Source: a virus
Virus record (IMG/VR): IMGVR_UViG_3300017598_000859
Span: 1 to 29,312 of that record
DNA length: 29,312 nucleotides
Reading direction: 5' to 3' (one strand)
The notes under the pieces were generated by a model. The model did no database searches and was not told where the DNA came from. It was given only the letters and a program-made list of their open reading frames with translations. Of this stretch, positions 3,380 to 19,444 are shown in pieces (position 1 is the first letter of the stretch; each line of letters opens with the position of its first letter). The position numbers and the translations under genes are program-made.

Positions 3380-3382
3380 TTT

Positions 3383-3601
3383 TTAATATCCTTTAATATG
3401 TTCTTTACGTGATAAACATAGACATTTTTTATCTTTCATCCATCTATTGTTTTCTTTAAGAGTTGGTTGAAATTCTTGTAAGCATTTTCCTTGTCCAAAA
3501 ACCCTTTGTTCAAAATACCTACATTTTATATTTATGTCAGAATTAACACAAAAGGTTGAGTTTGGAACCCTAATTTCCTTAAATACTATTGTTTCTTGCA
3601 T
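3383..3601 (-). CDS. Small five-cysteine protein, unknown
   Basis: 72 residues with cysteines near 18, 27, 40, 60 and 62, so metal binding is plausible. No family recognised. It sits between the dehydratase gene (1 nt gap) and the acetyltransferase gene. GGGATGGAATAA precedes the ATG. Confidence 0.65.
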   Translation of the reverse strand: MQETIVFKEIRVPNSTFCVNSDINIKCRYFEQRVFGQGKCLQEFQPTLKENNRWMKDKKCLCLSRKEHIKGY

Positions 3602-4576: not shown

Positions 4577-4775
4577 TGTCCTCCTTTATCTTTTCTCCAC
4601 AATCACATGGATCGATATCTAACAGCAAATTTAAATCATTATCAATTCCACGAGCATAAATATTTAATGGTTCTCCGCATACACTACAGTTAATAATTGC
4701 GGGTTGTTTTTTCATGTGGTTCCATATAGCTGAACAAACTGCACTACTTACTTCATTTGTCATTTCTTTGTTCAT
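4560..4775 (-). CDS. Small zinc-ribbon-like protein
   Basis: 71 residues with CSVCG (about 30-34) and CDCG (about 57-60), two Cys pairs that probably bind one zinc ion. GGAGGAATTGCTAA precedes the ATG. It overlaps the NeuB-like gene by 23 nt and the PseB-like gene by 17 nt, in other frames. Function unknown. Confidence 0.7.
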   Translation of the reverse strand: MNKEMTNEVSSAVCSAIWNHMKKQPAIINCSVCGEPLNIYARGIDNDLNLLLDIDPCDCGEKIKEDNDNNN

Positions 4776-5613
4776 TTAGCAATTCCTCCCTAAATTTTTT
4801 CAAAGGCCTCATTCCATCAGTCGGATCAACTTTCCATTTTTTCGCTTCTGAATCATAGTTTTTATCATGGCAAAGTATAGATTCTTGACTAATCCGCACA
4901 CCGCGAATAACATTTTTAATTTCTTTTGGAGTCCAGCAATGGCCAAAAGAGGATTCCCATCCTTTTTTGTCTTCAAGATCTAAATGAAATTCAATAAATT
5001 TAGCTCCTTGATTAACTGATTGATAAATTACTCCAGGCTCTTTTGTGTGGTCTGACCATCCTATTTTATTTTGATAATTATTTAAATAATTTTTGCAAAA
5101 TCTAATGTCGTACATTGAACAGTTTTTGTGAATTGCTGGATAAACAGAAGAACATCTGTATATTGCTTCCGGAGGCTTTCTTAAAATGGCTTTTGACTCT
5201 ACAAAACGTCTCACAGTTATTAGTTCCATCATCCCTGTGCTAATTTGCCACGGCTTTCCAGTTGATTGAACTTTTTTAATAAGATCATCCCATTGATTTT
5301 CGTAAGATCCTATTTTATAAAAATCAACATAAGGGAAAAGAATATCAACAGCACTTAACGAAAATGGAGTGCAACCAAACTTAATACCGATATCTCTACA
5401 GTATGTTGAAACTTCATTTAGATATTTTGCAGGAAATGTTTTTTTCTTTAAATCTTTTCTTTGCTGCTTGAAATCTGGATGGTATAAGTTTTCATTAAAA
5501 AGTTGAAGCTTAACAGCTGTGCATCCTGCTTTTTTTGCTTCATTTATTAATTTTTTTGTTCTTGGTAAACTTCCGTTATGATTTGATCCTAAGTCCGATA
5601 TCCAATTTATCAT
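4753..5613 (-). CDS. neuB: NeuB/PseI-like nonulosonic acid synthase, short form
   Basis: A 286-residue TIM-barrel protein of the N-acetylneuraminate (nonulosonate) synthase family, which condenses phosphoenolpyruvate with a six-carbon amino sugar. Visible family motifs are SDLGSNHNG (6-14), KLQLF (35-39), CTPFS (81-85), KIGSYE (100-105), STGM (125-128), CSSVYP (154-159) and GWSDHT (185-190). The usual C-terminal SAF/antifreeze-like domain of about 60-70 residues, which closes the active site of a dimer partner in NeuB, is missing: the protein ends after a basic helix. I start at ATG 5613 (MINW), just after the upstream stop; an in-frame GTG at 5631 is less likely. Its substrate is probably a di-N-acetylated hexose made by the neighbouring enzymes. 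Confidence 0.85.
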   Translation of the reverse strand: MINWISDLGSNHNGSLPRTKKLINEAKKAGCTAVKLQLFNENLYHPDFKQQRKDLKKKTFPAKYLNEVSTYCRDIGIKFGCTPFSLSAVDILFPYVDFYKIGSYENQWDDLIKKVQSTGKPWQISTGMMELITVRRFVESKAILRKPPEAIYRCSSVYPAIHKNCSMYDIRFCKNYLNNYQNKIGWSDHTKEPGVIYQSVNQGAKFIEFHLDLEDKKGWESSFGHCWTPKEIKNVIRGVRISQESILCHDKNYDSEAKKWKVDPTDGMRPLKKFREELLNEQRNDK

Positions 5614-5615
5614 TT

Positions 5616-5951
5616 TTAACAATTCTCCCACATTTTTTCAGCTAATTTTTTTCTTTTTTCTTTTTCCTTCCGTTTAATTTCTTTATTAAGTTCTTGTATT
5701 AAATACCTTTTCTTCCATACAATTTCTTCATCAACACATTTGCCGCATTTTATACATACCATTTTTTTTGCTGGTTTAGCGAATTCACAATCATTGACAA
5801 GAAAATATTCTAAATAATATTCATATTCTTCAATACAACTCCTAAAATATCTATAAACCTTCCCATATCCAATAATTTCCCAATCATGATTACAATAACT
5901 ATCATCAATTTTTCTATTTTTCGTCTTAAATATTTTATGCAATATATTCAT
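5616..5951 (-). CDS. Unknown protein with CxxCxxC motif
   Basis: 111 residues. A central CIKCGKC and further Cys suggest metal binding; the C-terminal 35 residues form a strongly basic Lys/Arg/Glu helix. The first 14 residues (MNILHKIFKTKNRK) are identical to those of the gene at 6400-6606, because both starts lie in an 81-bp repeat. GAGAGGAATTGGT before the ATG is a usable binding site. Function unknown. Confidence 0.65.
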   Translation of the reverse strand: MNILHKIFKTKNRKIDDSYCNHDWEIIGYGKVYRYFRSCIEEYEYYLEYFLVNDCEFAKPAKKMVCIKCGKCVDEEIVWKKRYLIQELNKEIKRKEKEKRKKLAEKMWENC

Positions 5952-5991
5952 ACCAATTCCTCTCTATTCTCCCAAATCTTATGAAATGCTT
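5911..5991. repeat. Imperfect 81-bp direct repeat, copy 1 (gene-junction duplication)
   Basis: Aligns without gaps to 6566-6646 (offset 655) with four mismatches. It covers the first 14 codons of the 111-aa gene, its ribosome binding site and, upstream, an untranslated relic of the end of the aminotransferase gene: in the relic frame it reads AFHKIWENREELV then stop, against AFHKVWENREELV in the intact gene. This is a scar of a partial duplication. Confidence 0.9.
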
Positions 5992-5993
5992 CC

Positions 5994-6371
5994 TTAATCA
6001 CATTTTTTCCAAGGTTTTGGCTTTATTTCATTTATTTCTTTTAAATATGCAATATGCTTTACGCACTCTTCTTTTGTATCAAACTGGACTATTTTATAAT
6101 GCCCCCCAATATTACTTTGTCCCATTCCCGCCACCCACCTTTTCATTTCAAATGATACGCCAAATATATTTTTATGTAATATTCTATATTTTTCACCATT
6201 TGTTATAAATTTTATTGTTTTAAATCTTATTATTTCTGGATAACTAAAAACCCAAAAACCAATAGGGATTAAAATTATAATAAGTAGTATATTATACAAA
6301 TTTGATTCGATTATATTGTTTATATCAAACTCACTAACCCCTTTTATTAAATCAGCAATCCAATTTATCAT
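5994..6371 (-). CDS. Unknown membrane-anchored protein
   Basis: 125 residues with one strong transmembrane segment at about residues 26-44, followed by a soluble C-terminal domain of about 80 residues. The first eight residues (MINWIADL) nearly match the NeuB-like start (MINWISDL), and 16 bp around the two starts are identical, suggesting reuse of a gene start. The stop lies directly against the duplicated junction at 5911-5991. Function unknown. Confidence 0.65.
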   Translation of the reverse strand: MINWIADLIKGVSEFDINNIIESNLYNILLIIILIPIGFWVFSYPEIIRFKTIKFITNGEKYRILHKNIFGVSFEMKRWVAGMGQSNIGGHYKIVQFDTKEECVKHIAYLKEINEIKPKPWKKCD

Positions 6372-6399
6372 TTAATATTTTCCTTATTTAAAAGTTTAA

Positions 6400-6606
6400 T
6401 CATTTAAACCAACGGACCTCCAGTTTTGTTATATTTTCCTCTGAAACATTTATTTTAAAATCATGAAGATAAAATTCTATTTTATTTAAATCTAAATCAT
6501 TAATGCGTTTTATTTCCTTTTGCAATTCATAAATATCTTCCATATATATTCTATTTTTCGTCTTTTTTCTATTTTTCGTCTTAAATATTTTATGCAATAT
6601 ATTCAT
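6400..6606 (-). CDS. Unknown 68-aa protein
   Basis: The N-terminus is the duplicated MNILHKIFKTKNRK block with an extra tandem KTKNR copy, matched at the DNA level by two copies of ctatttttcgtctt. The rest is a charged helical stretch. GAGAGGAGTTGGT before the ATG is a good site. The start overlaps the aminotransferase stop. Function unknown. Confidence 0.6.
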   Translation of the reverse strand: MNILHKIFKTKNRKKTKNRIYMEDIYELQKEIKRINDLDLNKIEFYLHDFKINVSEENITKLEVRWFK

Positions 6607-6646
6607 ACCAACTCCTCTCTATTCTCCCACACCTTATGAAACGCTT
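6566..6646. repeat. Imperfect 81-bp direct repeat, copy 2 (intact gene junction)
   Basis: Partner of 5911-5991. This copy holds the true last codons of the DegT aminotransferase and the start of the 68-aa gene, so it is probably the parent copy. Confidence 0.9.
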
Positions 6647-7886
6647 TTGCTGTATCTTCCATATCTTTAATGGTGGAGTTTGGAGCATGCAGAAGAGACA
6701 AAAACAATTCATCTTTGTATAATTTTTCTACAACAGGCAAATGACAATTATAACCTCTGGACTTAAAAACAGGCATTCGATTAATTGGTTTTATATATCC
6801 ATTCCCAATGTGAACACCTTCGCCGTCCCTGGTTGCTCTTGCTGTTAATTCTGCTTTAACAGCATTAATATACTTATCTCTATGCAATGCTTTATCTGAC
6901 CACTTAAACGCCTGTACATAATAGCTATGAGTACAATTGCCACGAATTTTAGCTGGTGTTATAGCAGGTATATCTTTTAATGCTTTGTTAAGATATTTAA
7001 CATTAGCAAGTCTTTTTTCAAGCAAATAGTCAAACTTTGCTAATTGAACACGGGCAATTGCTGCCGTTAATTCTGTTGCTCTAAGATTAAATCCAAATAA
7101 TTCTGGATATAATATTTTTGATTCAGGATAATCATTCTGTACGGCTTCTCCATGATTCATTAGCAATCTGCATTTATTTGCTAATTCATCATTGTCTGTA
7201 ACAATTACGCCCATCTCTCCTGCCGTGATATGCTTGCCAAAATTCAGGCTATATACTCCGATATCTCCGAGTGTACCAGCATACTTTGGCCCACTAATTT
7301 CATTCATTACTGGATCAAGGCCAAAGTTATATTTTATAATTTCACTTCCAATTGCCTGTGCTGCATCTTCAATAACAATTAAATTATGTTTTTCTGCGAT
7401 TTCCATAATTTTTGGGTTAAAGACTTGACCAAAAATAGAAACAGCAATTATAGCTTTTGTTTTTGAGGTTATTAGTTTTTCTACACAATCTGCATCAATA
7501 CAAAAATAATCACTTTCTACGTCAGAGAATACTGGAGTTGCATCCCATGCCAATGGCATAGTTGCAGAGCACGTCATCGTGTATGGAGATACTATAACTT
7601 CCCCACCTTTTATGTTAGCAGCACCACAAGCAATGAACAATCCAGACGTAGCAGAGTTACATACAATAGCATGTTTTGTATTAAACTTTTTAGCCCACTC
7701 TTTTTCTAATGCTTGAATTTCAGGTCCACCATAAAAACAATCTCCATCATTTGCTCTATAGCATGACAAACGCCCTTTTTCCATAACTCTTTGTATTGCT
7801 TCTATTTCTTTATTATCAAATGTGTTTTGATCTGGGAATAATTCTTTTTTAACTGGTTTTCCACCATTAACTGCTAATTTTTTCAT
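6603..7886 (-). CDS. DegT/DnrJ/EryC1/StrS sugar aminotransferase (PseC-like)
   Basis: A 427-residue PLP-dependent aminotransferase of the sugar-aminotransferase family, which adds an amino group to a 4-keto sugar nucleotide. The PLP lysine is Lys218 (NFGKHITAGEMG), the ring-nitrogen Asp is Asp174 (IEDAAQAIGS), and the PLP phosphate region is CNSATSG (76-82). An insertion of about 25 residues follows the EDAAQ motif. In pseudaminic and legionaminic pathways the PseC/LegC enzyme acts on the product of the PseB/LegB dehydratase, and a PseB-like gene lies about 2 kb downstream in the same direction. AAGGAGAAATAA precedes the ATG. The exact substrate is inferred from context. Confidence 0.9.
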   Translation of the reverse strand: MKKLAVNGGKPVKKELFPDQNTFDNKEIEAIQRVMEKGRLSCYRANDGDCFYGGPEIQALEKEWAKKFNTKHAIVCNSATSGLFIACGAANIKGGEVIVSPYTMTCSATMPLAWDATPVFSDVESDYFCIDADCVEKLITSKTKAIIAVSIFGQVFNPKIMEIAEKHNLIVIEDAAQAIGSEIIKYNFGLDPVMNEISGPKYAGTLGDIGVYSLNFGKHITAGEMGVIVTDNDELANKCRLLMNHGEAVQNDYPESKILYPELFGFNLRATELTAAIARVQLAKFDYLLEKRLANVKYLNKALKDIPAITPAKIRGNCTHSYYVQAFKWSDKALHRDKYINAVKAELTARATRDGEGVHIGNGYIKPINRMPVFKSRGYNCHLPVVEKLYKDELFLSLLHAPNSTIKDMEDTAKAFHKVWENREELV

Positions 7887-8086
7887 TTATTTCTCCTTGT
7901 AGTGATAAAAAACCCTTTTGGTTCAATGTCAGAGCTTCCATATAAAACTTTCCATGTATCTTTAATGCACATCTGATTTCTATGCATTACAAATAACTGA
8001 TTATGTTTTATTTTATGGGTTATTTTATGGTTTATTTTATCTTTTACCCACTGTTCTGCATCAAAATCTTCATTTAATAAATCCAT
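7883..8086 (-). CDS. Unknown 67-aa protein
   Basis: A basic, His-rich small protein (several HK repeats near 19-28). No recognised family. AAAGGACAAA precedes the ATG. The last codons carry the aminotransferase ribosome binding site inside a 20-bp sequence that also occurs at 8356-8375. Confidence 0.6.
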   Translation of the reverse strand: MDLLNEDFDAEQWVKDKINHKITHKIKHNQLFVMHRNQMCIKDTWKVLYGSSDIEPKGFFITTRRNK

Positions 8087-8094
8087 TTTGTCCT

Positions 8095-8358
8095 TTATAC
8101 ATTTTCGTCATTTAATATTTTTAACACATTATCCTGAACTACAAACCTATCTGCATAACCTGATTGAGTCAGGCAATTTTTAGCAGACTCAATTTTTTCT
8201 CTTGCTTCTTGTAATTCAAGTGCTAAAAAATAAATCAAATTATCACCCGTTAAATCTCTCCATTCTTTACCATATCTTAGTGCCTTTAAACCATATTTAC
8301 CATCCATAGTAACAGTATATTTATCGTTGCTTACAGATACTTCTAAAAATCTGCTCAT
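8095..8358 (-). CDS. Unknown 87-aa protein
   Basis: A soluble protein with a predicted beta-rich N-terminal half and a helical C-terminal half. No motif recognised. The start is well supported by AAGGAGAAATAA, which lies in the end of the upstream gene. Confidence 0.65.
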   Translation of the reverse strand: MSRFLEVSVSNDKYTVTMDGKYGLKALRYGKEWRDLTGDNLIYFLALELQEAREKIESAKNCLTQSGYADRFVVQDNVLKILNDENV

Positions 8359-8577
8359 TTATTTCTCCTTGTAGTACCATTTTTCAAAAATATCCCACAA
8401 AAATGACATATGTCCATCTGGATCAACATCAATATATTCATCACCAGGGACAGTGAACCATGTTGGGCCAAATAATTTGCTGAATTCGAATAAATAAGTT
8501 GTATGCTCAAAACAAATATAATTTCTATATTTGGCAAAATCACAAGCAAATCCATTATTTATTTTTATACAAGCCAT
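8359..8577 (-). CDS. Unknown acidic 72-aa protein
   Basis: Rich in aromatic and acidic residues (for example GDEYIDVDPDGH). Chosen over an overlapping frame (8355-8555) because its ATG follows AGGAGAAACAA directly and it fits the gap between neighbours. Function unknown. Confidence 0.65.
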   Translation of the reverse strand: MACIKINNGFACDFAKYRNYICFEHTTYLFEFSKLFGPTWFTVPGDEYIDVDPDGHMSFLWDIFEKWYYKEK

Positions 8578-8586
8578 TTGTTTCTC

Positions 8587-8658
8587 CTAAAAGATTTTAT
8601 CAACGATACTATACACATAATCAGTAGACACTTTAAAATTTTTATCTTTTCTATTCAT
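8587..8658 (-). CDS. 23-aa microprotein candidate
   Basis: A short ORF (MNRKDKNFKVSTDY...), with AAAGGAAATTTAA before the ATG and a TAG stop touching the next gene's ribosome binding site. It sits just downstream of the structured RNA at 8685-8859 and is probably the first translated ORF of that transcript. Position and binding site support it; no homology evidence. Confidence 0.45.
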   Translation of the reverse strand: MNRKDKNFKVSTDYVYSIVDKIF

Positions 8659-8684
8659 TTAAATTTCCTTTGTTTAAGGTTTAA

Positions 8685-8859
8685 GGGGGTTTAGTGGGGA
8701 GTGACCCGATAGATTCACCCACTACGAGTTTTAGCCCGCTAAGGAGATTGCCACATTCCTTCCTATTTTACAGCCCGGGAAATGTGGCCCGCTCGGATGT
8801 ACACGAAAATGAAATCACCAGGCCAACCCACTTAAGCGTGGGTATTATTTTTATTATCT
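8685..8859 (-). ncRNA. Highly structured RNA (possibly HEARO/omega-RNA-like) behind its own promoter
   Basis: About 175 nt with much higher G+C than its surroundings, no supported ORF and several helices on the minus strand. P1: ACCCAC (8843-8838) pairs with GTGGGT (8831-8826). A long-range helix joins CGAG (8795-8792) with CTCG (8728-8725). It encloses P2, GCCACATT (8788-8781) with AATGTGGC (8757-8750), and P3, TTAG-CGGG-CTAA (8742-8731). P4: TAGTGGG (8724-8718) pairs with CCCACTA (8698-8692), extended by TGA/TCA. The likely transcription start, about 7 nt past TATAAT (8871-8866), leaves only about 15 unpaired nt before P1. That layout resembles IscB omega-RNAs (HEARO), where a short guide precedes the scaffold. 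The identity is a guess; no IscB or TnpB gene is in the window. The structure itself is well supported. Confidence 0.75.
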
Positions 8860-8865
8860 ACTTAT

Positions 8866-8894
8866 ATTATAGGCAAAACGGCATAAACATTTCA
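8866..8894 (-). promoter_or_regulatory. Conserved phage promoter, copy A
   Basis: Minus strand: perfect TATAAT (8871-8866), 17-nt spacer, then TGAAAT (8894-8889). The block GTTTTGCC touches the -10, with AT-rich DNA upstream. The same arrangement recurs at 17973-18001 and 24911-24939. This copy faces the structured RNA. The weak -35 and invariant spacer suggest recognition by more than plain sigma70. Confidence 0.75.
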
Positions 8895-8918
8895 GATTTA
8901 TTTTATTTTTTTATTTTT

Positions 8919-9434
8919 TTATTTCAAGTAAGTTGAATAAAAATCAAAAACACTTCTTTTAAATGAATTTAAGGTATAGTTATTTTCTAATTTATAATTA
9001 TAATTATAATTCATATATCCATTGTCACCAGTATTGCTAAATGCTTTTGCTTTTTTTTCTGCTTCATCATTAACAATTCTTATTGTAAAGCATTCAATGT
9101 TTTTATTCTTACAATAAGAAACAAGTTTTTTTATTTCTGATGGCTCACGGATATTAACGCAAATAAATTTAAATTGAGCAGAAGGGTAGCAATCAAATTG
9201 TTTTATTATTTCTTTAAAGGGAGTATTGTTATATTCTGTTGTAGCATTTTTAATGTCGCTTAAAAACCTTCTTCCTTTTGCATTTTTTTTGCCATCCCAC
9301 CCAAGTAATTTGGCTTTTTCTTTTACCCAATCAATTGAAGAATATCTAACTGTGTCGGTAATTTCTTGCATACAATCAATAAATGTATCCTTGCCAGATC
9401 TTGGAGCACCATTTATAATTAATACTTTTGCCAT
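8919..9434 (-). CDS. P-loop kinase, deoxynucleoside monophosphate kinase-like
   Basis: 171 residues starting with a strand and Walker A motif GAPRSGKDTF (about 9-18), the form seen in T4 gp1-type dNMP kinases and related P-loop kinases. A later strand (FKFICVNIREP) and Arg/Glu-rich helices fit a small nucleotide kinase with a lid. The neighbouring DUF550 pyrophosphohydrolase and thymidylate synthase support a role in dNTP supply. Substrate specificity cannot be read from sequence. It is the last gene before promoter copy A. Confidence 0.7.
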   Translation of the reverse strand: MAKVLIINGAPRSGKDTFIDCMQEITDTVRYSSIDWVKEKAKLLGWDGKKNAKGRRFLSDIKNATTEYNNTPFKEIIKQFDCYPSAQFKFICVNIREPSEIKKLVSYCKNKNIECFTIRIVNDEAEKKAKAFSNTGDNGYMNYNYNYKLENNYTLNSFKRSVFDFYSTYLK

Positions 9435-9436
9435 TA

Positions 9437-9745
9437 TTATTCCCTTATATGCTCAATTGCCTTTCCTATTTCAGCCTTTTCCCAATCAGGCCATTTTCTT
9501 TTTTGATTTTTGTTATGTTTAAAAAATAACATTTCGCAAATCTCTTTAGCAGAAAATCCATTTCTCCAAGCAGCGTCTAAGGCCAAAATAATAACATCGA
9601 TCCATTCTTCTAAATCTCCTGGAGATTCTTTAATTTCTTTTAATTCTTTTTTAATATGATCAATTATACCTTCATCTCTTTGACCTGGGCCGAATGTTTT
9701 AGTCGAAAATTTAATTTGCTGGTTAATATATTTTTCTAAGTCCAA
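9437..9745 (-). CDS. DUF550 / MazG-like nucleotide pyrophosphohydrolase
   Basis: 102 residues with the DUF550 pattern: FGPGQRDEGIIDHIKKE, then DLEEWIDVIILALDAAW (the helix with the metal-binding acidic residues), then a WPDWEKAE...AIEH tail. Members of this all-alpha NTP pyrophosphatase group hydrolyse dATP/dGTP or similar nucleotides. The start codon is TTG at 9745, preceded by GAAGAGGATTAACAAT; I see no better ATG. Probably part of nucleotide pool control with the kinase downstream and thymidylate synthase upstream. Confidence 0.8.
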   Translation of the reverse strand: MDLEKYINQQIKFSTKTFGPGQRDEGIIDHIKKELKEIKESPGDLEEWIDVIILALDAAWRNGFSAKEICEMLFFKHNKNQKRKWPDWEKAEIGKAIEHIRE

Positions 9746-9749
9746 ATTG

Positions 9750-10031
9750 TTAATCCTCTTCAGTGTCTTTTTTATTTCCGAATACGTCTTTCCACAACAT
9801 CTCTAAAACAGAAAACTTAACTCTTTCGTCATCAATAGATTGTTTATAATTTGTTTTAACAAGTTTTTTAAACATTACAGGTTCAATCCCGAACCTGTCT
9901 TTCACAGAATTTGCAAGTATTTTTAAATTATCTTTTGCTGTCTCAATATCCAAAAGAAAATTAAATCCATCTTTTTCTACCAATTCTTTTAAATCTTCTT
10001 TTTCTTTTTGCGTTAATTCGTATTTTTTCAT
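9750..10031 (-). CDS. Small helical protein, possibly T4 DsbA-like
   Basis: 93 residues. The middle (KILANSVKDRFGIEPVMFKKLVKTNYK) has the layout of T4 dsDNA-binding protein DsbA, which has AKDELGVDGKMFNRLLALYH at the equivalent place, followed by an acidic C-terminal helix. T4 DsbA binds DNA near late promoters. The resemblance is from memory and short, so the call is tentative. GAGGACTGAT precedes the ATG. Confidence 0.5.
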   Translation of the reverse strand: MKKYELTQKEKEDLKELVEKDGFNFLLDIETAKDNLKILANSVKDRFGIEPVMFKKLVKTNYKQSIDDERVKFSVLEMLWKDVFGNKKDTEED

Positions 10032-10032
10032 A

Positions 10033-10197
10033 TCAGTCCTCTTTATTTTCTTCCATTTTTAGAAATAAGTTATCAATTAAACTCTCATCTGTTACAGGGA
10101 AACAAGTCTGATTATCTGTACCTGCTAAAAGATAGAATGTTCGTTCTCCAACATATTTATAGAGATTCCGCCGATACCAAAACTTTAAACCTTTCAT
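10033..10197 (-). CDS. Unknown 54-aa protein
   Basis: A short ORF beginning MKGLKFWYRRN, basic and aromatic at the N-terminus and acidic at the C-terminus. AAGGAATAAAA precedes the ATG at 10197; the TGA stop at 10035-10033 lies one base before the next gene's ATG. It fills what would otherwise be a 190-nt gap. No family recognised. Confidence 0.65.
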   Translation of the reverse strand: MKGLKFWYRRNLYKYVGERTFYLLAGTDNQTCFPVTDESLIDNLFLKMEENKED

Positions 10198-10218
10198 TTT
10201 TATTCCTTTTTGTTAATT

Positions 10219-11010
10219 TTATTCTCTAAATTCTTCTATGGTTTTCCCTCTAACTGCTTCCGCAAGTTCAAAAACATAATTATAAATGTGAAGACCTTTG
10301 CTACTTGCAATAATTTCACCATTATCAACACCAATTTCTGACGCCATATGTTGCTTTAGTAATTCAATTGCAGCAAGGTTAGCGGGGAATCCAGACCATA
10401 AATCCCACGATCTAAAATATGGAAAAAAATGTAATTTACCATCTTGAATTCTTAAATCAATTATTTGCAGGCATGCCGGATCTTTTAAAACAGAATCTAC
10501 TGGATGGCAAATTTTAAGAACTTCTTGGTTGCTTCTGTGACCTTTGTTTTTAAAATTACTAATTGCTATTTCTACTTGGTCAATATAGTATCCAAAGATC
10601 ATGTCTGAACGCACAAAATCATTAAAATTATCTATAGTTACATCTGAATTGAATTTATCAAAATGTCTTATATTACACTTTGTCATCCTTTTCCCATATG
10701 TGTAGCTTTCACCTAGTTTTTCTTCTCCGGTCATTATATAAGGAACATAATCATTAATATAATCTGCTTCAACCGGACCTGGTATATTTAGTAAAGGATT
10801 TAAACGAGGGAGAAGTGGTTCAATTTCTCCAAATGTATTAGCTGATGGATTTTGAATTTGAATTGTAATATAGTCAAACTCAAGTCTTTTTTGTCCTTTG
10901 TATGATCCTTTATCTATTATAAATTCTCTACCCATTTCAACACATTTATATATAGTTTGGAACCATGCATCAGGAAGTGTTGTCGCTTTTATGAAAACTG
11001 GATTAAGCAT
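10219..11010 (-). CDS. thyA: Thymidylate synthase family (ThyA-type)
   Basis: 263 residues. All core residues of E. coli ThyA align at a constant offset of 34: Cys180 (nucleophile, Cys146), Arg200, Ser201 and Asp203 (RSWD), Asn211 (Asn177), His241 and Tyr243 (GLHIYNY). The segment DLRIQDGKLHFFPYFRSWDL is typical. An Asn rather than Asp at the Asn177 position favours a uracil substrate, so dUMP methylation (or hydroxymethylation) is more likely than dCMP hydroxymethylation. The C-terminus lacks the usual -PVAI-like ending. AGGAGAATTT precedes the ATG. It makes dTMP for phage DNA synthesis. Confidence 0.88.
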   Translation of the reverse strand: MLNPVFIKATTLPDAWFQTIYKCVEMGREFIIDKGSYKGQKRLEFDYITIQIQNPSANTFGEIEPLLPRLNPLLNIPGPVEADYINDYVPYIMTGEEKLGESYTYGKRMTKCNIRHFDKFNSDVTIDNFNDFVRSDMIFGYYIDQVEIAISNFKNKGHRSNQEVLKICHPVDSVLKDPACLQIIDLRIQDGKLHFFPYFRSWDLWSGFPANLAAIELLKQHMASEIGVDNGEIIASSKGLHIYNYVFELAEAVRGKTIEEFRE

Positions 11011-11018
11011 AAATTCTC

Positions 11019-11336
11019 CTATTTTTCATTCAAAAATTGCTTAAGGGTAATGCTTTTATCATCAATATAGTAATCACTTCCACCTTTTCCCATCATAATT
11101 CCATGATAAGGAACACAATTTTTAATTAACCAGGAAACAAGGAATGGAGCTTCATTCCACCATCGTGCAGTCCAAATAATAATTAAGTGCCCATTCATAT
11201 ATAATTTTTTAATTTTTTTAATAATTTCTTCATCTGGTCCTGGATTATCATTATATTCTCCAGTTGTTAACGTCCCGTCAAAATCAATATTAAAAACTTC
11301 TCTATTTTTGTTTTCTGTATACGTTTCACTTTCCAT
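11019..11336 (-). CDS. Small HAD-superfamily phosphatase
   Basis: 105 residues with HAD motif I FNIDFDGTL (about 15-23), motif II IIWTAR (about 53-58), a Lys-containing GKGGSDYYIDD segment combining motif III Lys with motif IV acidic residues. There is essentially no cap domain, as in small 5'-phosphatases and capsule-gene phosphatases. It could act on nucleotides (next to thymidylate synthase) or on a sugar phosphate (next to the sugar oxidoreductase). Nonulosonate pathways can need such a phosphatase. AGAGGTTTTTA precedes the ATG. Confidence 0.82.
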   Translation of the reverse strand: MESETYTENKNREVFNIDFDGTLTTGEYNDNPGPDEEIIKKIKKLYMNGHLIIIWTARWWNEAPFLVSWLIKNCVPYHGIMMGKGGSDYYIDDKSITLKQFLNEK

Positions 11337-11640
11337 TAAAAACCTCTTTTATTTTAATTTCATCAATATTTTCATTATCCCAATCAACAGGAATTCTCAT
11401 AATGTAATCTTTGTATTCTATCGTAAAAATGTCTTGTTTGCACTCTTCGCAAAACCCAGCGTTAACCGTCCTTTGTTTAGTTTCAAAAATATTTTTTCCA
11501 AATGCCGCCTGAATCCATTGTTTATTTTTTTCATTTATAGATAATGTGCATTTAAAATCATAAGATGTTTTTATATTAAAATAATATTCGATAAAATCTC
11601 GGACAAATTCCTCTGTGTTTTTAGATTTATCTATTTTCAT
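11326..11640 (-). CDS. Unknown 104-aa protein with CxxC
   Basis: A mixed helical/beta protein with a CEEC pair near residues 64-67. I start at ATG 11640, right after the oxidoreductase stop; an in-frame TTG at 11652 is the alternative. It overlaps the HAD gene by 11 nt. No family recognised. Confidence 0.6.
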   Translation of the reverse strand: MKIDKSKNTEEFVRDFIEYYFNIKTSYDFKCTLSINEKNKQWIQAAFGKNIFETKQRTVNAGFCEECKQDIFTIEYKDYIMRIPVDWDNENIDEIKIKEVFNGK

Positions 11641-11641
11641 A

Positions 11642-12640
11642 TTATGTCCCAATTGAATCCTTGATTAAATGTACGTGGAGAGCGTCTGATCCACTACACA
11701 ATGGTTTTGATTCGCCTCTAATAGTAGACACTGCATTATCAATTAATCCGTATAGAGACGTATTCAATCCTGTTTCTTGCCGAATTACAGAAGACAAAGA
11801 ATACTCCATAGCAGGATGACCCCATTCGTTTCTTTCTGCTACCGGATAAATCTCATATTGTAGCCCATTATCAATTAATCTGATTCTTGCCTTGTCGAAT
11901 ACAATGTCTATTTCGAAGATGCCAAACTTTCTACCATCGCACCCCTGAAAAACAACATTAGAACATTTTTCGAAAGACATTTTATAATCATACGTCAAAT
12001 CATTTGGATCTCTATCGTTAATGCCGTTTCTGTTTAGAATTTCTGCATTTAAACAATCTCCGAAAAAATATCGACAAATATCTACAGCATGACAACAATC
12101 ATGCCAACCTCTTGTGTATGCAATCCTTACATTTTGAACTTTCCCAAATTTTTCAGATTCAGTATATTTTTTAATTTCTTTGTGTCCATCTGAAAATCTT
12201 CGAATATAATCAATCATAATAGGGATATTTCTTTGATCACATTCCTGTATAATTGTTTGTGTCTCTTTCGTATTTGAGCAAAAAGGCTTTTCGGCAATGA
12301 TTAGTTTGGGTTGATTTTTACCTGAATATTTTAGGATATCATTAATAACTTGATAATGTGTATTTGTGGGGGTTGCTACAATTACAATATCTGGTGGATC
12401 AGTCTGCAAAACAGCATACATTTGTTCAACAGTGTTAAAGCAATTCTCAGGATACCATTTTTTTGTTACTGCTTTTAGTTTTTCTGTACTTTTATCAATA
12501 ACAGCATGAAGAGTCGTTTCTTGATGAACCGTAATTGCATTTGCGTGCGTCAGAATGTTTGTGCTGCCATTGAAATCAATATCATCTGGTTTGAGTGCGC
12601 CTATGGAACCTAAACCAACGAGGCATACTTTTTTATTCAT
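11642..12640 (-). CDS. Gfo/Idh/MocA-family sugar oxidoreductase
   Basis: 332 residues. The N-terminal NAD(P)-binding Rossmann motif is VGLGSIG (8-14), followed by VIVATPTNTHY (86-96) and the family's catalytic-lysine motif EKPF (117-120). A WHDCCHAVD segment (179-187) supplies the His/Asp of the active site in the C-terminal beta-sheet domain. Relatives oxidise or reduce sugars and sugar nucleotides, and PtmA-like oxidoreductases occur in legionaminic acid clusters. It lies in the same direction as the cytidylyltransferase upstream. AAAAGGAGAAAATAA before the ATG is a strong site. Exact substrate unknown. Confidence 0.88.
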   Translation of the reverse strand: MNKKVCLVGLGSIGALKPDDIDFNGSTNILTHANAITVHQETTLHAVIDKSTEKLKAVTKKWYPENCFNTVEQMYAVLQTDPPDIVIVATPTNTHYQVINDILKYSGKNQPKLIIAEKPFCSNTKETQTIIQECDQRNIPIMIDYIRRFSDGHKEIKKYTESEKFGKVQNVRIAYTRGWHDCCHAVDICRYFFGDCLNAEILNRNGINDRDPNDLTYDYKMSFEKCSNVVFQGCDGRKFGIFEIDIVFDKARIRLIDNGLQYEIYPVAERNEWGHPAMEYSLSSVIRQETGLNTSLYGLIDNAVSTIRGESKPLCSGSDALHVHLIKDSIGT

Positions 12641-12757
12641 TTATTTTCTCCTTTTCTTTTTATAAATTTTCCCACAAGAAGAACACTTATATTTCTGTGA
12701 ACAACATCCAGTTTTTATTTTAAAATATTTTCCACCGCAAGAGCATTTTCTTTTCAT
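12641..12757 (-). CDS. 38-aa basic zinc-ribbon microprotein
   Basis: Begins MKRKCSCGGKYFKI and contains CSC, a CC pair and CSSCG, enough for one zinc ion, with a Lys/Arg-rich tail. Its ATG overlaps the previous stop (TAATG), and its last codons carry the ribosome binding site of the oxidoreductase gene. Likely real by position; function unknown. Confidence 0.55.
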   Translation of the reverse strand: MKRKCSCGGKYFKIKTGCCSQKYKCSSCGKIYKKKRRK

Positions 12758-12906
12758 TATTCTTCTTGCCCAGCTTCAAACTCTTCTCCACAATCCTCGC
12801 AAATTAATGATTCTTCATAAGATGGGTCTTCTTCTGTTTCATTAAATTGCCCACAAGGACATTCCCAACCCCATCTTTCAAGCCTGTAATAATTTACCTT
12901 TTTCAT
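12757..12906 (-). CDS. 49-aa zinc-ribbon-like protein
   Basis: Contains CPCG (about 16-19) and CEDCG (about 36-40) in an acidic protein, consistent with a zinc ribbon. AAGGATGAAT precedes the ATG at 12906. It sits between the cytidylyltransferase and a second zinc-ribbon ORF. Function unknown. Confidence 0.65.
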   Translation of the reverse strand: MKKVNYYRLERWGWECPCGQFNETEEDPSYEESLICEDCGEEFEAGQEE

Positions 12907-12908
12907 AT

Positions 12909-13673
12909 TCATCCTTCTTCTATACTTTTTCTTTTAATGTTAGAGTTTATTTTCAGCAATTCAGGATTTTTATTTAACCAATAAACAACATCCTCTACTT
13001 TAAAAAACACATCATGCCCGAATTTATCAAAAACTTTTTTAAGGAGTTCATAATCCTCTGGTGTATCAAGAGTAAGTCCCCAATCTGGATAATGCATGTC
13101 TGGCGAAGCAGGCCAATTCATAATTTCAAAATATTCAGGGTTCAGAGCAAGGTTAATTCCGACATGACAATCAGGTGTAAAGATCTTATTGCATTCTTTT
13201 AAAGCATTAATTCCGTAAACCTGAATATCAAACCCATCAGGCCATGATCTTGTAACACAATTAGACACATAATCAACATCATTTTTAATAAGTGTTTCAT
13301 ATAAATAATCAATATGTCTTGGGTCTACCAACGGGCAATCACATGTTAAATCAACTATAATGTCTGTCTTATTTTTTTGCGCTGCTGCGATCATTCGTTC
13401 TATACAATTGTTTTCGGCTCCGGAATAACTAAAAACACTTACCTGGTTAGAGTTGCCGAAATATTTATTAACATGATCCCGAATAGGATCATTAGCAGAA
13501 TTAGATGTTGTCGCAATAATAACATCATCAACATATTTAGCACTAAGACACCGATTTACCATCCACCAGATTGAGCTTTTTCCATTGAGCTTTTTTAGTA
13601 CTTTTCCAGGGAGTCTTGTGGATCGCATTCTTGCAAAAATAATAGCTGTTGTTTTTGTTATTTTGTTTTTCAT
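12909..13673 (-). CDS. SpsF/NeuA-like cytidylyltransferase
   Basis: A 254-residue nucleotidyltransferase of the CMP-KDO/CMP-sialate synthetase superfamily, SpsF branch. The nucleotide-binding loop is IIFARMRSTRLPGKVLKKL (11-29). CDCPLVDP (111-118) holds metal-binding Asp residues, and LTLDTPEDY near the C-terminus is typical of SpsF proteins. It would activate a nonulosonic acid (or KDO-like sugar) as its CMP derivative before transfer. It lies about 7 kb upstream of the NeuB-like gene in the same direction. AAGGAAATAA precedes the ATG. The sugar substrate is inferred only. Confidence 0.85.
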   Translation of the reverse strand: MKNKITKTTAIIFARMRSTRLPGKVLKKLNGKSSIWWMVNRCLSAKYVDDVIIATTSNSANDPIRDHVNKYFGNSNQVSVFSYSGAENNCIERMIAAAQKNKTDIIVDLTCDCPLVDPRHIDYLYETLIKNDVDYVSNCVTRSWPDGFDIQVYGINALKECNKIFTPDCHVGINLALNPEYFEIMNWPASPDMHYPDWGLTLDTPEDYELLKKVFDKFGHDVFFKVEDVVYWLNKNPELLKINSNIKRKSIEEG

Positions 13674-15364: not shown

Positions 15365-15401
15365 TAGCCTCTCTTTTAAATGTTGTTATTCTTTTTCTAT
15401 T
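15365..15401. repeat. 37-bp exact direct repeat, copy 2
   Basis: Partner of 14574-14610. Here it spans the end of the SbcC C-terminal-half gene (IEKE, stop) and the ribosome binding site of the 47-aa membrane protein. Confidence 0.92.
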
Positions 15402-16009
15402 TCCCTAACCTGGCTAACTCCATCCTTAATCTTAACTTCCAGAACTTTATCCCCTTCATTTATTAATTCATCTATATGGGACACCATTAAAATCTGAATT
15501 CCGAGCTGTTTACTTGTTTCTGATATCATTTTTCCAAACAAATCCATTTTATCTCTGCTTACAAATCTACCTGGTTCATCAAGAATTAATACTTTTCTAC
15601 TTCCGGGCTTTTCGAGTGTTAATGCTCCAACTTGTAATGCAAATGCAGAAACATTAATCGGGCCGCCTCCAGAAGCATCTAAGGGCTTTGTTTTATTTCC
15701 ATCTCTTTCAAACATTAAATGGCATTCTGTCGTTCCCCTGCCCACTATTTTGAAATCTGATACCATAGCATAGGGATTATCGTAAACACTCGCTAACGCC
15801 AAAGAAACTGGCTCTGTGATCCTATATTGCAACTCTTCTTGTGTATTTTTTGCAACTGCTGTTATAATTAATTGTGCTTTCTTTGATGTTTCAATCTCTT
15901 TCTCTAAATTTTCTAATTTTTGATCTGACTTTTGAATATCATTTAAGATTTGTTCCCGTTTGCCTTTTTGCCTTTCGATGTCTATTCTGTAGTTTTGGAT
16001 GGATTTCAT
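15386..16009 (-). CDS. sbcC: SbcC/Rad50/gp46-like ATPase, C-terminal half as a separate protein
   Basis: 207 residues. Residues 1-50 are a short coiled coil; the rest is the C-terminal lobe of an SMC-like ABC ATPase, with signature motif DASGGGPIN (111-119), Walker B LILDEP (141-146) and the His switch VSH (176-178). There is no Walker A here; it is in the gene at 18011-19444, so the two should assemble into one ATPase head that, with the SbcD-like nuclease between them, processes DNA ends. Short stand-alone proteins with the DASGGG signature occur in other phages as far as I recall. The start overlaps the upstream stop (TTATGA) with no clear ribosome binding site, so coupling is likely. Confidence 0.88.
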   Translation of the reverse strand: MKSIQNYRIDIERQKGKREQILNDIQKSDQKLENLEKEIETSKKAQLIITAVAKNTQEELQYRITEPVSLALASVYDNPYAMVSDFKIVGRGTTECHLMFERDGNKTKPLDASGGGPINVSAFALQVGALTLEKPGSRKVLILDEPGRFVSRDKMDLFGKMISETSKQLGIQILMVSHIDELINEGDKVLEVKIKDGVSQVREIEKE

Positions 16010-16194
16010 AAGTTAAAATCCGAATCAATACCTTTCCCTAAAAAATAACCCCATAATACAATAGGTACAAGTATCAAAAAAGATATAAAATATTTATAAA
16101 CACTAATTGGAGCTGAGCTATCTAATGCAAGCAGCATAATTAAACAAGCAAAAAACAAAGCTAAAGCAAGTGGAAGTATTATTTTCCATTTCAT
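16006..16194 (-). CDS. Small membrane protein with two transmembrane segments
   Basis: 62 residues with hydrophobic helices at about 5-24 and 34-54. GGGAGAATAAAATA precedes the ATG. Its stop overlaps the ATG of the SbcC C-terminal half. Function unknown. Confidence 0.7.
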   Translation of the reverse strand: MKWKIILPLALALFFACLIMLLALDSSAPISVYKYFISFLILVPIVLWGYFLGKGIDSDFNL

Positions 16195-16198
16195 TATT

Positions 16199-16438
16199 TT
16201 ATTCTCCCGGAAATTCTTTCTCTAATTTTTCCATACCCTCTTGAAATTTTGCCTCTTTCTCGTCTAATTCTTCTGCCATCCTGTCAAGCTCGGAATCAAT
16301 TTCAGACACATCAATATTAAATGTTTGCTTAATTTGAGACTCCAAAGCTGATTTTTTACCTTTAATTTCAGAAGACTTTACTTTGGCATCTTCAATTTGG
16401 TTCTTGATTTTCATTAATTTTTCAGTTTTGGCTTTCAT
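16199..16438 (-). CDS. Stand-alone coiled-coil protein, possible piece of the split SbcC
   Basis: 79 residues, nearly all heptad-patterned charged helix with no Cys. A break near residues 40-46 (FNIDVSEID) could allow a hairpin. AAAGGAGAAATAA precedes the ATG. Position between the nuclease and the ATPase C-terminal half suggests it supplies coiled-coil length missing from that half, but this is inference; it may also be an unrelated scaffold protein. Confidence 0.7.
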   Translation of the reverse strand: MKAKTEKLMKIKNQIEDAKVKSSEIKGKKSALESQIKQTFNIDVSEIDSELDRMAEELDEKEAKFQEGMEKLEKEFPGE

Positions 16439-16648
16439 TTATTTCTCCTTTTTTGATCTTAAATTTAGATGGGTTTTACATGCTTTTTTAAATGCTTTTT
16501 CAATTCCTTCTTTTTCCACAAAATGACCACCATCCCTATGAATAATTGCTAATAAGTCTATCAATTTTAGCTTGTAAAAACACACATCACAGACCTTGCG
16601 GGCCGGATCTATATTTATAGCATAGCTTCCACATTGACATTTTCCCAT
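16439..16648 (-). CDS. Small zinc-binding protein
   Basis: 69 residues with CQCG (4-7) and CDVC (about 20-23) at the N-terminus, a likely zinc ribbon, followed by a helical basic domain. AAGGAGAATTAA precedes the ATG, the same leader as the next gene upstream. Function unknown. Confidence 0.7.
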   Translation of the reverse strand: MGKCQCGSYAINIDPARKVCDVCFYKLKLIDLLAIIHRDGGHFVEKEGIEKAFKKACKTHLNLRSKKEK

Positions 16649-16870
16649 TTAATTCTCCTTATTTTCTGTTTTAAAATCACCGTCAGCATCGCAATGGGCT
16701 GGTGGATATCCATGTTTTCTAATATTCCAGTGCCTTAATATTCTATTTGGCAAAAGACAAAATACTATTTGAAACATTCCTTCAACAACCAATCCAACAA
16801 TAAAGGCCAAAGGCAAGCCAACAAAGAAAGTTAAATATGGGCTATCGCTCATAAATTGATAAATATCCAT
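16649..16870 (-). CDS. Small membrane protein
   Basis: 73 residues with a hydrophobic region at about 12-40 that could span the membrane once or as a hairpin, then a basic and finally acidic tail. AAGGAGAATTAA precedes the ATG. Function unknown. Confidence 0.7.
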   Translation of the reverse strand: MDIYQFMSDSPYLTFFVGLPLAFIVGLVVEGMFQIVFCLLPNRILRHWNIRKHGYPPAHCDADGDFKTENKEN

Positions 16871-17770
16871 TTAATTCTCCTTATCTATTGCTGCAAAAAT
16901 TTTATTTTTCACAGAAATTTCAGTTCGATATTTCTTCAAATAGTTTTCCATATTGTTTTCAAACGATAGCTCTAATTCCGTATCTTCACGTAATTTTTGG
17001 ACAAAAGAATCATACCTATCACTTCTTAAATCTTTTTCTATAACATGGTCAGTCAAAATAGTATCTTCATTAATCGGTAAAAGAACTTTTTTTATTTCAT
17101 TAGTATCTGAATACCAAAGGAAAACGCCGGGCTTATAATCAATCTGTGCAACTGTTGTTCTCATTATACTCCCGGGGTTCACTAACATTTGATTTTTATT
17201 TTTAGATATAAAAGAAGAATGATTATCCCCACTAACAATTAAATCATATCCAGGGTTATCAATTAATACTTGATTCCCCCTATACCCTTCTTGCCCTGGA
17301 AATAAATCTTTTTTCTGAATTATCATTTGATGAGTCATTGCAATATTGATCTGATTTCCAGATTCAGCTTTTGTGACTTCTTGCCCATAAGAAAAAGGAT
17401 GAATTAAAACATCATCCATCCATGTTGGTTCTTGAATAAAGTTAATTGCTCCGGCAGCATGCAAAACTCCAATCCCTGCTTTGTCCCATAAATCTAATTT
17501 ATGATTAGGGAGATCATGCTGGCCTGCACAGATAATAACATTAACATCTTTAAATTTATTGATTGTCCATTCTAAGAGCCAGTTTTTCCACTGTGGTTTA
17601 TGGCCAAGATCACCAGCAGAAAGAATAGGACAATTATGCTTTTTGGCTAAATTAACTATAAAATCAATCTTTTTTTCTTGAGATTGCAAAAATTCATCTT
17701 TATTTCTACAAACAGAGCTGTCTGATCTAAGGTGAATATCTGCTGTTAATATTGCGGATGCTTTTTTCAT
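16871..17770 (-). CDS. sbcD: SbcD/Mre11/gp47-like nuclease
   Basis: A 299-residue calcineurin-like metallophosphoesterase. Metal-binding motifs appear in order: TADIHL (9-14), SAGDLG (51-56), AGQHD (82-86, a GNHD variant with Gln for Asn), THQ (146-148) and SGDNHSS (179-185), followed by NPGSIMRT. The layout and length match T4 gp47 and SbcD, the nuclease partner of gp46/SbcC. Its ATPase partner is encoded in two pieces on either side. Promoter copy B and a 45-aa membrane ORF lie just upstream. The Gln replacing the conserved Asn could change catalysis and deserves attention. Confidence 0.88.
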   Translation of the reverse strand: MKKASAILTADIHLRSDSSVCRNKDEFLQSQEKKIDFIVNLAKKHNCPILSAGDLGHKPQWKNWLLEWTINKFKDVNVIICAGQHDLPNHKLDLWDKAGIGVLHAAGAINFIQEPTWMDDVLIHPFSYGQEVTKAESGNQINIAMTHQMIIQKKDLFPGQEGYRGNQVLIDNPGYDLIVSGDNHSSFISKNKNQMLVNPGSIMRTTVAQIDYKPGVFLWYSDTNEIKKVLLPINEDTILTDHVIEKDLRSDRYDSFVQKLREDTELELSFENNMENYLKKYRTEISVKNKIFAAIDKEN

Positions 17771-17786
17771 TTAATCGCCTTATAAT

Positions 17787-17924
17787 TTATAATCTTGTTT
17801 GGTCACATTTAATGAAAAATAAAGGGACAATTGCCCAAGCTTTAGCCCAGCCACTCATAAACCAAAGAATCGAAAAAAACAGCAATGCCCAAACTATATT
17901 CTCTGCATATTCCATTGTTTTCAT
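17787..17924 (-). CDS. 45-aa single-pass membrane microprotein
   Basis: Begins MKTMEYAENIVWALLFFSIL; residues ~10-38 are hydrophobic and Trp-rich. AGGAGATGAT precedes the ATG at 17924. It is the first ORF after promoter copy B, about 40 nt from the predicted transcript start. Function unknown. Confidence 0.7.
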   Translation of the reverse strand: MKTMEYAENIVWALLFFSILWFMSGWAKAWAIVPLFFIKCDQTRL

Positions 17925-17972
17925 ATCATCTCCTGGTGTTTTTATTACATAGTATCTTTATTATCTATCTAT

Positions 17973-18001
17973 ATTATAGGCAAAACTGTATAAATATTTC
18001 A
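17973..18001 (-). promoter_or_regulatory. Conserved phage promoter, copy B
   Basis: TATAAT (17978-17973), 17-nt spacer, TGAAAT (18001-17996), with GTTTTGCC against the -10 as in copies A and C. It lies only a few bases after the stop of the SbcC N-terminal half, so it separates the two halves of that ATPase into different transcription units. Confidence 0.75.
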
Positions 18002-18010
18002 AAATTATTT

Positions 18011-19444
18011 TTATTTTCCACACAAAGGGCATTCATCCGGCATTAATTCTTTTAGTTTTTTTTCAAGATCATCCTGTTTTTCTTTCCAAGATACAATAGC
18101 TTTATCATGTTTATCCAAGCCCTCCGCCAAATCGAACAATTCATTATATTTATTGTCTTTAGAGTCGATTTCATTATTAAGGGATGATAAGGCATTAACC
18201 ATGTCGCTAAACCTTGTCAAATCAGCATATTTGCACTCCTGAACACCAATATGATTAAAGCCTTTAGATAAAAGTTCAAGGGATTCATAAGATTCTCTAT
18301 TTTTATGAACTTCAGCATTCAATTCAATTAAATTATTTACCTTCTCTTCATGTTTGGCAGTCTTGTTTATTTTTTTACTTTGAATTGCTGCCCATTCTAA
18401 TTGACCGGACAATGTTAATAATTCTTTATGGTCATTCCTTAAACCCTGAATTGATTCATTTAAATTGATTAATAAATCAACATTTGGTTCAAATACAATA
18501 ACGGAATCAGCTTTTCGTTTTTGATCTCGATAAAAATTTAATTTATTTTCAAGTTCTTCTAACTCATCAAATAAATTTCCTTTTTTCTTAATAAATAAAT
18601 TTAAATCTATTAGATCATTGGTTGCTTTTTTATGACGGGTAATTTTATTGATTTTTTCATTTTCTTCATTAATTTCTTTAATTTCTTTATTCTTCTGAAA
18701 AAGAGAAGACCAGTTATCTTTGGTTTTTTTAATTGCTTTTTGAATTTTTTCACAACTTTGAATTAATTTCTCTGTATCTTCAATCCAGTTAAAAGATTTT
18801 AGATCTTCTTGTTTTTCATCGTTTTTTAGTTTTTCTGTTTTTAAATCTCTTTTTTCTGATTTAAGGGTTTTTGAAATATTAGAAATAGTCGAATCAATTA
18901 CATCAAGATTAACAATTTTATTATAGAATTTAGCAACATCAGTTGGAGAATCGTCAAGTAAAAACGGCTTTGCGAATTGAGAACTAAGATTAATAGAATT
19001 CATATTCAATACAGATTTGATTTTTTCAGGAACTCCCTGGCCGAAAGACTTAAAAACCTCAACACATCCTGAATCTTTTCCTGTTTTGATTGCTTCTTTA
19101 TAATCTTTTTTGATTTCTTCTTTTGGTTTTGTTTTGTTTATAAGAACATAAAAATTCTTATTTCCCGCTTTATATTTCTCTGCTTTGCGGTCTTTTGTGA
19201 CTGACTTATACCTTACTACTGCTTTATCGTTTAAATCTATTCTAATGGACATATTGTCGCCCCAATGGGAAAAATAACCTTCTCCGGATGGGCGATTTGT
19301 TACTACTGTATTTATAGCTTTTAAAATATTAGATTTGCCGCAATCATTTGACCCGGTAATCAAGTTAACGCCTTTGTCAAACTCAATAAAAGTGTCTTTA
19401 TGAGATCGATAGTTCTGTATTCTTATAGACTGTATTCCATCCAT
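18011..19444 (-). CDS. sbcC: SbcC/Rad50/gp46-like ATPase, N-terminal half ending at the zinc hook
   Basis: 477 residues. The N-terminal ABC lobe has IRIQNYRSHKD (7-17), Walker A GSNDCGKSN (31-39) and a Q-loop at Gln156 (SSQFAKPF). Residues ~185-465 are coiled coil. The protein stops at ECPLCGK: the hook cysteines are Cys472 and Cys475, and only two residues follow. The returning coiled coil, signature motif and Walker B are absent; they are encoded at 15386-16009, beyond the nuclease gene. In Rad50 and SbcC the CxxC hook is at the apex between the two coiled-coil arms, so this protein ends exactly at the turn. GAGGAGAAATA precedes the ATG. Confidence 0.9.
   Translation of the reverse strand: MDGIQSIRIQNYRSHKDTFIEFDKGVNLITGSNDCGKSNILKAINTVVTNRPSGEGYFSHWGDNMSIRIDLNDKAVVRYKSVTKDRKAEKYKAGNKNFYVLINKTKPKEEIKKDYKEAIKTGKDSGCVEVFKSFGQGVPEKIKSVLNMNSINLSSQFAKPFLLDDSPTDVAKFYNKIVNLDVIDSTISNISKTLKSEKRDLKTEKLKNDEKQEDLKSFNWIEDTEKLIQSCEKIQKAIKKTKDNWSSLFQKNKEIKEINEENEKINKITRHKKATNDLIDLNLFIKKKGNLFDELEELENKLNFYRDQKRKADSVIVFEPNVDLLINLNESIQGLRNDHKELLTLSGQLEWAAIQSKKINKTAKHEEKVNNLIELNAEVHKNRESYESLELLSKGFNHIGVQECKYADLTRFSDMVNALSSLNNEIDSKDNKYNELFDLAEGLDKHDKAIVSWKEKQDDLEKKLKELMPDECPLCGK

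Follow-up and report, generated by a model that had tools for sequence, protein, structure and literature searches.

An ATPase of the SbcC/Rad50 type whose gene is cut in two at the zinc hook could be either a broken gene or a working machine made of separate chains, and this is the question raised by a viral genome fragment, IMG/VR record IMGVR_UViG_3300017598_000859, analyzed here over its whole length of 29,312 bases (the window). The original prediction, made from the window alone, held that the split falls exactly at the hook, that it looks functional, and that a small coiled-coil protein and the SbcD nuclease encoded between the halves are candidate partners. An open reading frame (ORF) check agreed with its genes and coordinates, and in order of transcription on the minus strand, the locus encodes the N-terminal half (N-half), a 45-amino-acid (aa) ORF, the nuclease, ORFs of 73 and 69 aa, the 79-aa coiled-coil protein, a 62-aa ORF, and the C-terminal lobe (C-lobe). 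It is clear from our results that this is a split variant of SbcC/Rad50 and not an ordinary member, that the split is found in more than 100 distinct virus contigs and is not peculiar to the genome of the window, and that the 79-aa protein is a conserved family of its own. Together, these parts very probably form a phage SbcCD/Mre11-Rad50 complex in which the SbcC protomer consists of separate chains and an extra helical-hairpin subunit.

The N-half (18011..19444, minus strand, 477 aa) carries a Walker A motif (G31 to K37), a Q-loop (Q156), and a long helical arm, and its C-terminus reads PDECPLCGK followed directly by the stop codon, placing the hook motif CPLC at residues 472-475 (cysteines C472 and C475). 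It matches the AAA_23 profile (5.5e-13) and, over its whole length, phrog_16465 (1.8e-22). When the profiles of the two halves were compared with solved structures, the top matches of both were archaeal Rad50 proteins, among them 1ii8 and 1f2t, which are two-chain constructs; for the N-half, the best values were ~1e-12, to 5f3w and 3aux. G31, K37, and Q156 are invariant in the family alignment. The claim that this half ends at the apex of the coiled coil is borne out across relatives: of 148 N-halves, 142 have a CxxC motif among their 45 C-terminal residues (median distance to the C-terminus, 11 residues), compared to 8% of 889 other ORFs from the same loci that are 250 aa or longer. The predicted model of the N-half (mean predicted local distance difference test score [pLDDT] 81.5) aligns with the Rad50 half-construct 1f2u_C (Z 12.4, root mean square deviation 2.9, 136 residues aligned), a match that covers mainly residues 1-219 and barely reaches the distal arm.

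The C-lobe (15386..16009, minus strand, 207 aa) comprises a coil of ~45 aa, an SGGG signature (114-116), the LDE of Walker B (D144 and E145), and the H-loop histidine H178, with D144, E145, and H178 invariant in its family. It matches phrog_15167 over its whole length (7e-23) and SMC_N below threshold (2.6e-4), and among solved structures, its profile places Rad50 at the top (3qkr_B, 6.6e-15). The lobe had been described as a separate gene with a short coil, and this holds well beyond the window, as it stands alone in all of the 163 loci with a C-lobe (GenBank comparators included; median length 206 aa) except JWF, an intact comparator that was chosen deliberately. The further claim that both halves keep their catalytic motifs stands for the conserved columns, but the ABC signature is S/R-G-G-G and not the usual LSGGQ/E.

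The nuclease (16871..17770, minus strand, 299 aa) is of the calcineurin-like SbcD/Mre11 type, with the motifs DIH, GD, GQHD, TH, and GDNH and a match to Metallophos (2e-07), and it lies near the C-lobe gene in 113 of the 122 non-redundant loci defined below. It and the ATPase are on separate chains in the window, which is therefore not a case of an Mre11/Rad50 fusion. As a side observation, the motif GDNH stands in place of GHxH in the window nuclease, and by a simple pattern, 61 of the 113 relatives have D and 30 have H; the same H-to-D change occurs in Mimivirus R555 (PMC3175470).

The fourth part, the 79-aa protein (16199..16438, minus strand), lies between the halves together with SbcD and the small ORFs, as had been claimed. 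The AlphaFold2 model consists of two helices (residues 2-40 and 44-75) joined by a sharp turn (pLDDT 95.8), and because the protein has no cysteines, it is not a second hook. With an iterated profile, the hairpin family was matched in 154 of 165 loci, normally once in each, and its gene usually adjoins that of the C-lobe; in locus L120, a second, weak match falls within the N-half. A clear counterpart of the hairpin profile was not found in intact SbcC proteins.

To place the window among its relatives, two C-lobe profile scans of viral contigs were used, from which the best 80 of 287 and the best 80 of 289 relatives gave 157 distinct loci; removal of near-copies at 90% identity, with GenBank comparators included, left 122 loci, some of which may stem from overlapping stretches of one contig. 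Alignments were needed for this, as single-sequence scans of the viral contigs with the two halves of the window gave no matches, and in the wide alignment A6, no stretch usable for patterns was found. All four parts are present in 103 of the 122 loci, and the N-half and C-lobe occur as a pair in 105, with many of the remainder truncated; before near-copy removal, the N-half was found in 146 loci. Among four-part loci, the order is N-half, nuclease, hairpin, C-lobe in 87, the nuclease comes last in 12, and it precedes the N-half in 3. These last (L030, L032, and L033) are also the only loci in which the nuclease and N-half are a single protein, and the hook stays terminal in them. Another arrangement was observed in a 485-kb uncultured phage (L008:1813-5893), where the order is hairpin gene, sliding-clamp-like gene, C-lobe, with the nuclease upstream; an N-lobe is located further upstream, ~7.6 kb from the C-lobe.

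The split set is also found in sequenced isolates such as Bacillus phage vB_BboS-125 and Microcystis phage Mvi-JY20, and Microbacterium phage Magritte retains all four parts even though they are dispersed over ~130 kb. A scan of cellular genomes gave 10 relatives among 84,980 species genomes, nine of them metagenome-assembled, so the split form is rare in cells, while the scan tells little else about hosts; the carriers are most likely tailed phages. Since the same cut and the same gene set recur in more than 100 contigs, the split is an ancient arrangement that has been maintained, not the result of gene breakage, and the retention of the four genes, in the same order or dispersed, strongly supports the original prediction both in regarding the split as functional and in naming the 79-aa protein and SbcD as partners.

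The four proteins also appear to have evolved together. Correlations among their distance matrices range from r 0.69 to 0.90 (C-lobe with N-half, 0.84; with nuclease, 0.90; with hairpin, 0.77), compared to at most 0.23 for shuffled matrices, and with distant pairs only, they are still 0.49-0.79. A full-length SbcC elsewhere in the genome had been named as evidence that would speak against the split being functional; the window is a 29-kb fragment, and in an AAA_23 search of 20 long records of relatives, a longer intact SbcC was not found. In 18 of these records, the single lobe above the cut-off is that of the split system; in G012, the one AAA_23 lobe falls below the cut-off, and G015 has two further weak, sub-threshold matches. 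In phylogenetic trees, a single branch separates the split from the single-chain phage SbcC proteins, with Shimodaira-Hasegawa-like approximate likelihood ratio test (SH-aLRT) values of 93 for the N-lobes and 99.9 for the C-lobes. These are quick, unrooted trees with long branches and only 7 single-chain phage SbcC proteins, and the division they suggest is compatible with a single origin of the split, short of proof.

Based on the parts present, the proposed complex would work as follows. The N-half would supply the Walker A lobe together with a helical arm that has the zinc hook at its end, and the C-lobe the signature, Walker B, and H-loop, and the two lobes would pair into one ABC half-site, as the chains do in the Rad50 crystals 1f2u and 1ii8. 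The heads of two such protomers would close on ATP, and zinc bound by two N-half tails would join the protomers at the hook, with an SbcD dimer at the base. The hairpin of ~80 aa is most likely a third structural subunit, which would pack on the base of the coil or on the side of the C-lobe. In the phage, the complex may process DNA ends or hairpins for recombination-dependent replication, acting beside a UvsX/RecA recombinase and endonuclease VII. More tentatively, this may be a distinct Rad50 architecture, in which the hairpin and free C-lobe form a head partner of constant size and the hook arm sits on a second subunit that is free to evolve in length. There would then be no mechanical coupling between hook and C-lobe, and ring opening could occur through release of a subunit and not at the hook; we consider this proposal a serious possibility, albeit one that falls short of being probable. 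It has long been asked how Rad50 heads communicate their ATP state through the coiled coil to the hook, and a natural enzyme that is cut at the apex in many phages and equipped with an added conserved subunit offers a ready-made test, in which any piece can be left out, trimmed, or exchanged with no need for engineering.

Several observations weigh against a four-part complex of this kind. The signature is atypical, as noted above, and in a few loci, no hairpin was detected. The predicted template modeling score (pTM) of the N-half model, 0.44, leaves the fold of the arm unsettled, and the terminal CxxC is absent from the N-halves of Magritte (L002:3839-4891) and a relative (L042:936-1826), in both of which the hook may have been lost. 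Finally, gene linkage, or the shared inheritance of a phage replication module, could inflate the co-evolution signal.

Of the other explanations, the strongest is that the hairpin and C-lobe together represent nothing more than the descending half of an ancestral SbcC, divided between two genes, so that the three chains would reassemble into a regular Rad50 whose antiparallel arms match. The summed length of N-half, hairpin, and C-lobe (median 646 aa) is indeed near the 625-723 aa of intact phage SbcC, and the hairpin gene is almost always ahead of the C-lobe gene. The arms, however, do not match. Intact phage SbcC proteins that have a hook carry it at a fraction of 0.485-0.509 along the chain. 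In 97 split systems, by contrast, the hook is located anywhere between 287 and 522 aa, yet the hairpin and C-lobe together stay within 275-306 aa, the two being uncorrelated (Spearman rho 0.07, p 0.49). The split form is not equivalent to a single continuous chain with matched antiparallel arms, and this uncoupling of the hook arm from the C side argues against a Rad50 plainly cut in two and for a distinct subunit. The prediction of two helices and a sharp turn, in place of a single descending helix, and the lack of a clear counterpart in intact proteins point the same way, and we regard a simple cut arm as rather unlikely.

It had also been suggested that a phage promoter at the break allows the halves to be expressed differently, and by extension, the split might exist in order to set unequal doses of the two. 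A sigma70-like match (TTGAAA-18-TATAAT; 17973..18002, minus strand) does begin 9 bases past the stop of the N-half gene, running from 18002 to 17973, and with 11 of 12 consensus positions, it is the best of the region, but a window of this composition should contain ~1.2 such matches on each strand by chance, and the genes overlap or abut in many relatives. The putative element stands, its role as a working promoter is unproven, and its use as a device for unequal expression is unsupported; a split that exists for regulation seems improbable to us. Still less credible is the idea that the C-lobe works independently as an ABC-type regulator, or belongs to a different complex (with a sliding clamp or clamp loader, for example), and that the N-half acts alone. 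A few loci do have only a C-lobe in the examined stretch, and in Tunturi_5, the C-lobe is present while an AAA_23 lobe was not detected, but neither half alone has a complete ATP site, and the halves occur as a pair in most loci, have matching evolutionary distances, and are kept together when dispersed. The reading of the split as a decayed or mis-assembled SbcC, produced by a frameshift, stop, or gene insertion, might seem to be favored by the other genes lying between the halves, but it was rejected on conservation across relatives, sequenced isolates included, in which the cut point and gene set are identical and the catalytic columns intact, and we give it next to no weight.

As for the rest of the window, four small ORFs without family matches are interspersed among the genes of the split system on the minus strand: a hydrophobic ORF of 45 aa between the N-half and nuclease genes (17787..17924), one of 73 aa with a hydrophobic N-terminus (16649..16870), a cysteine-rich, zinc-ribbon-like ORF of 69 aa (CQCG..CDVC) between the nuclease and hairpin genes (16439..16648), and a hydrophobic ORF of 62 aa between the hairpin and C-lobe genes (16006..16194). 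The stop of this last ORF is overlapped by the start of the C-lobe gene, and it is a candidate member of the module. Neighboring genes belong to replication and recombination (a UvsX/RecA-type recombinase, endonuclease VII, DNA polymerase III alpha, and a clamp loader). The window also contains, at 2822-13673 on the minus strand, a gene set resembling those for nonulosonic (pseudaminic/legionaminic-type) sugar acids, comprising an acetyltransferase (2822-3379), Polysacc_synt_2 (3602-4576), NeuB (4753-5631), a DegT aminotransferase (6603-7886), an oxidoreductase (11642-12640), and CTP_transf_3 (12909-13673). A divergent thymidylate-synthase-like protein, possibly a base-modifying enzyme, is encoded at 10219-11010.

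The split may also bear on an earlier puzzle. L033, from a record of 218,948 bases that is probably Bacillus phage 0305phi8-36, as we presume, encodes within 4678-8714 a nuclease-N-half fusion with a terminal hook, a hairpin gene (6980-7279), and a separate C-lobe (8004-8714). For the SbcD-SbcC fusion of 0305phi8-36, Yoshida et al. (2011) reported that one SbcC P-loop segment "was not observed" (PMC3175470), and given the presumed identity, the separate C-lobe gene is the likely answer to the missing lobe. The Mre11/Rad50 fusions of that paper are likewise viral SbcD-SbcC systems with altered gene architecture, but the split is not described there. Another phage replication enzyme known in split form is the DNA polymerase III alpha of jumbo phages, whose stand-alone pieces are believed to reassemble into the active enzyme (PMC7824862); in the same review, SbcC/SbcD is treated as an ordinary system that all myovirus jumbo phages have (PMC7824862). 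A literature search limited to open-licence papers found no description of a split SbcC. The two halves are contained whole-length in PHROG 16465 ("exonuclease") and PHROG 15167 ("ATPase"), which are listed as unrelated, with no link there among the halves, hairpin, and nuclease, and the split accounts for this orphan "exonuclease" and orphan "ATPase" in phage annotations. With single-chain SbcC/Rad50 and SbcD/Mre11, such as Achromobacter phage JWF gp43/gp44 and T4 gp46/gp47, the split system has in common its lobes, the Walker A, Q-loop, Walker B, and H-loop motifs, the CxxC, and a nuclease gene, and it differs in its two genes cut at the hook, its third, hairpin gene, its SGGG/RGGG signature, and its unmatched arms. 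A further likeness is to the Rad50 crystal constructs 1f2t, 1f2u, and 1ii8, in which the ATP head is likewise made from two polypeptides, but those are man-made and short-armed, whereas the phage split is natural and has a hook-bearing arm and an added subunit.

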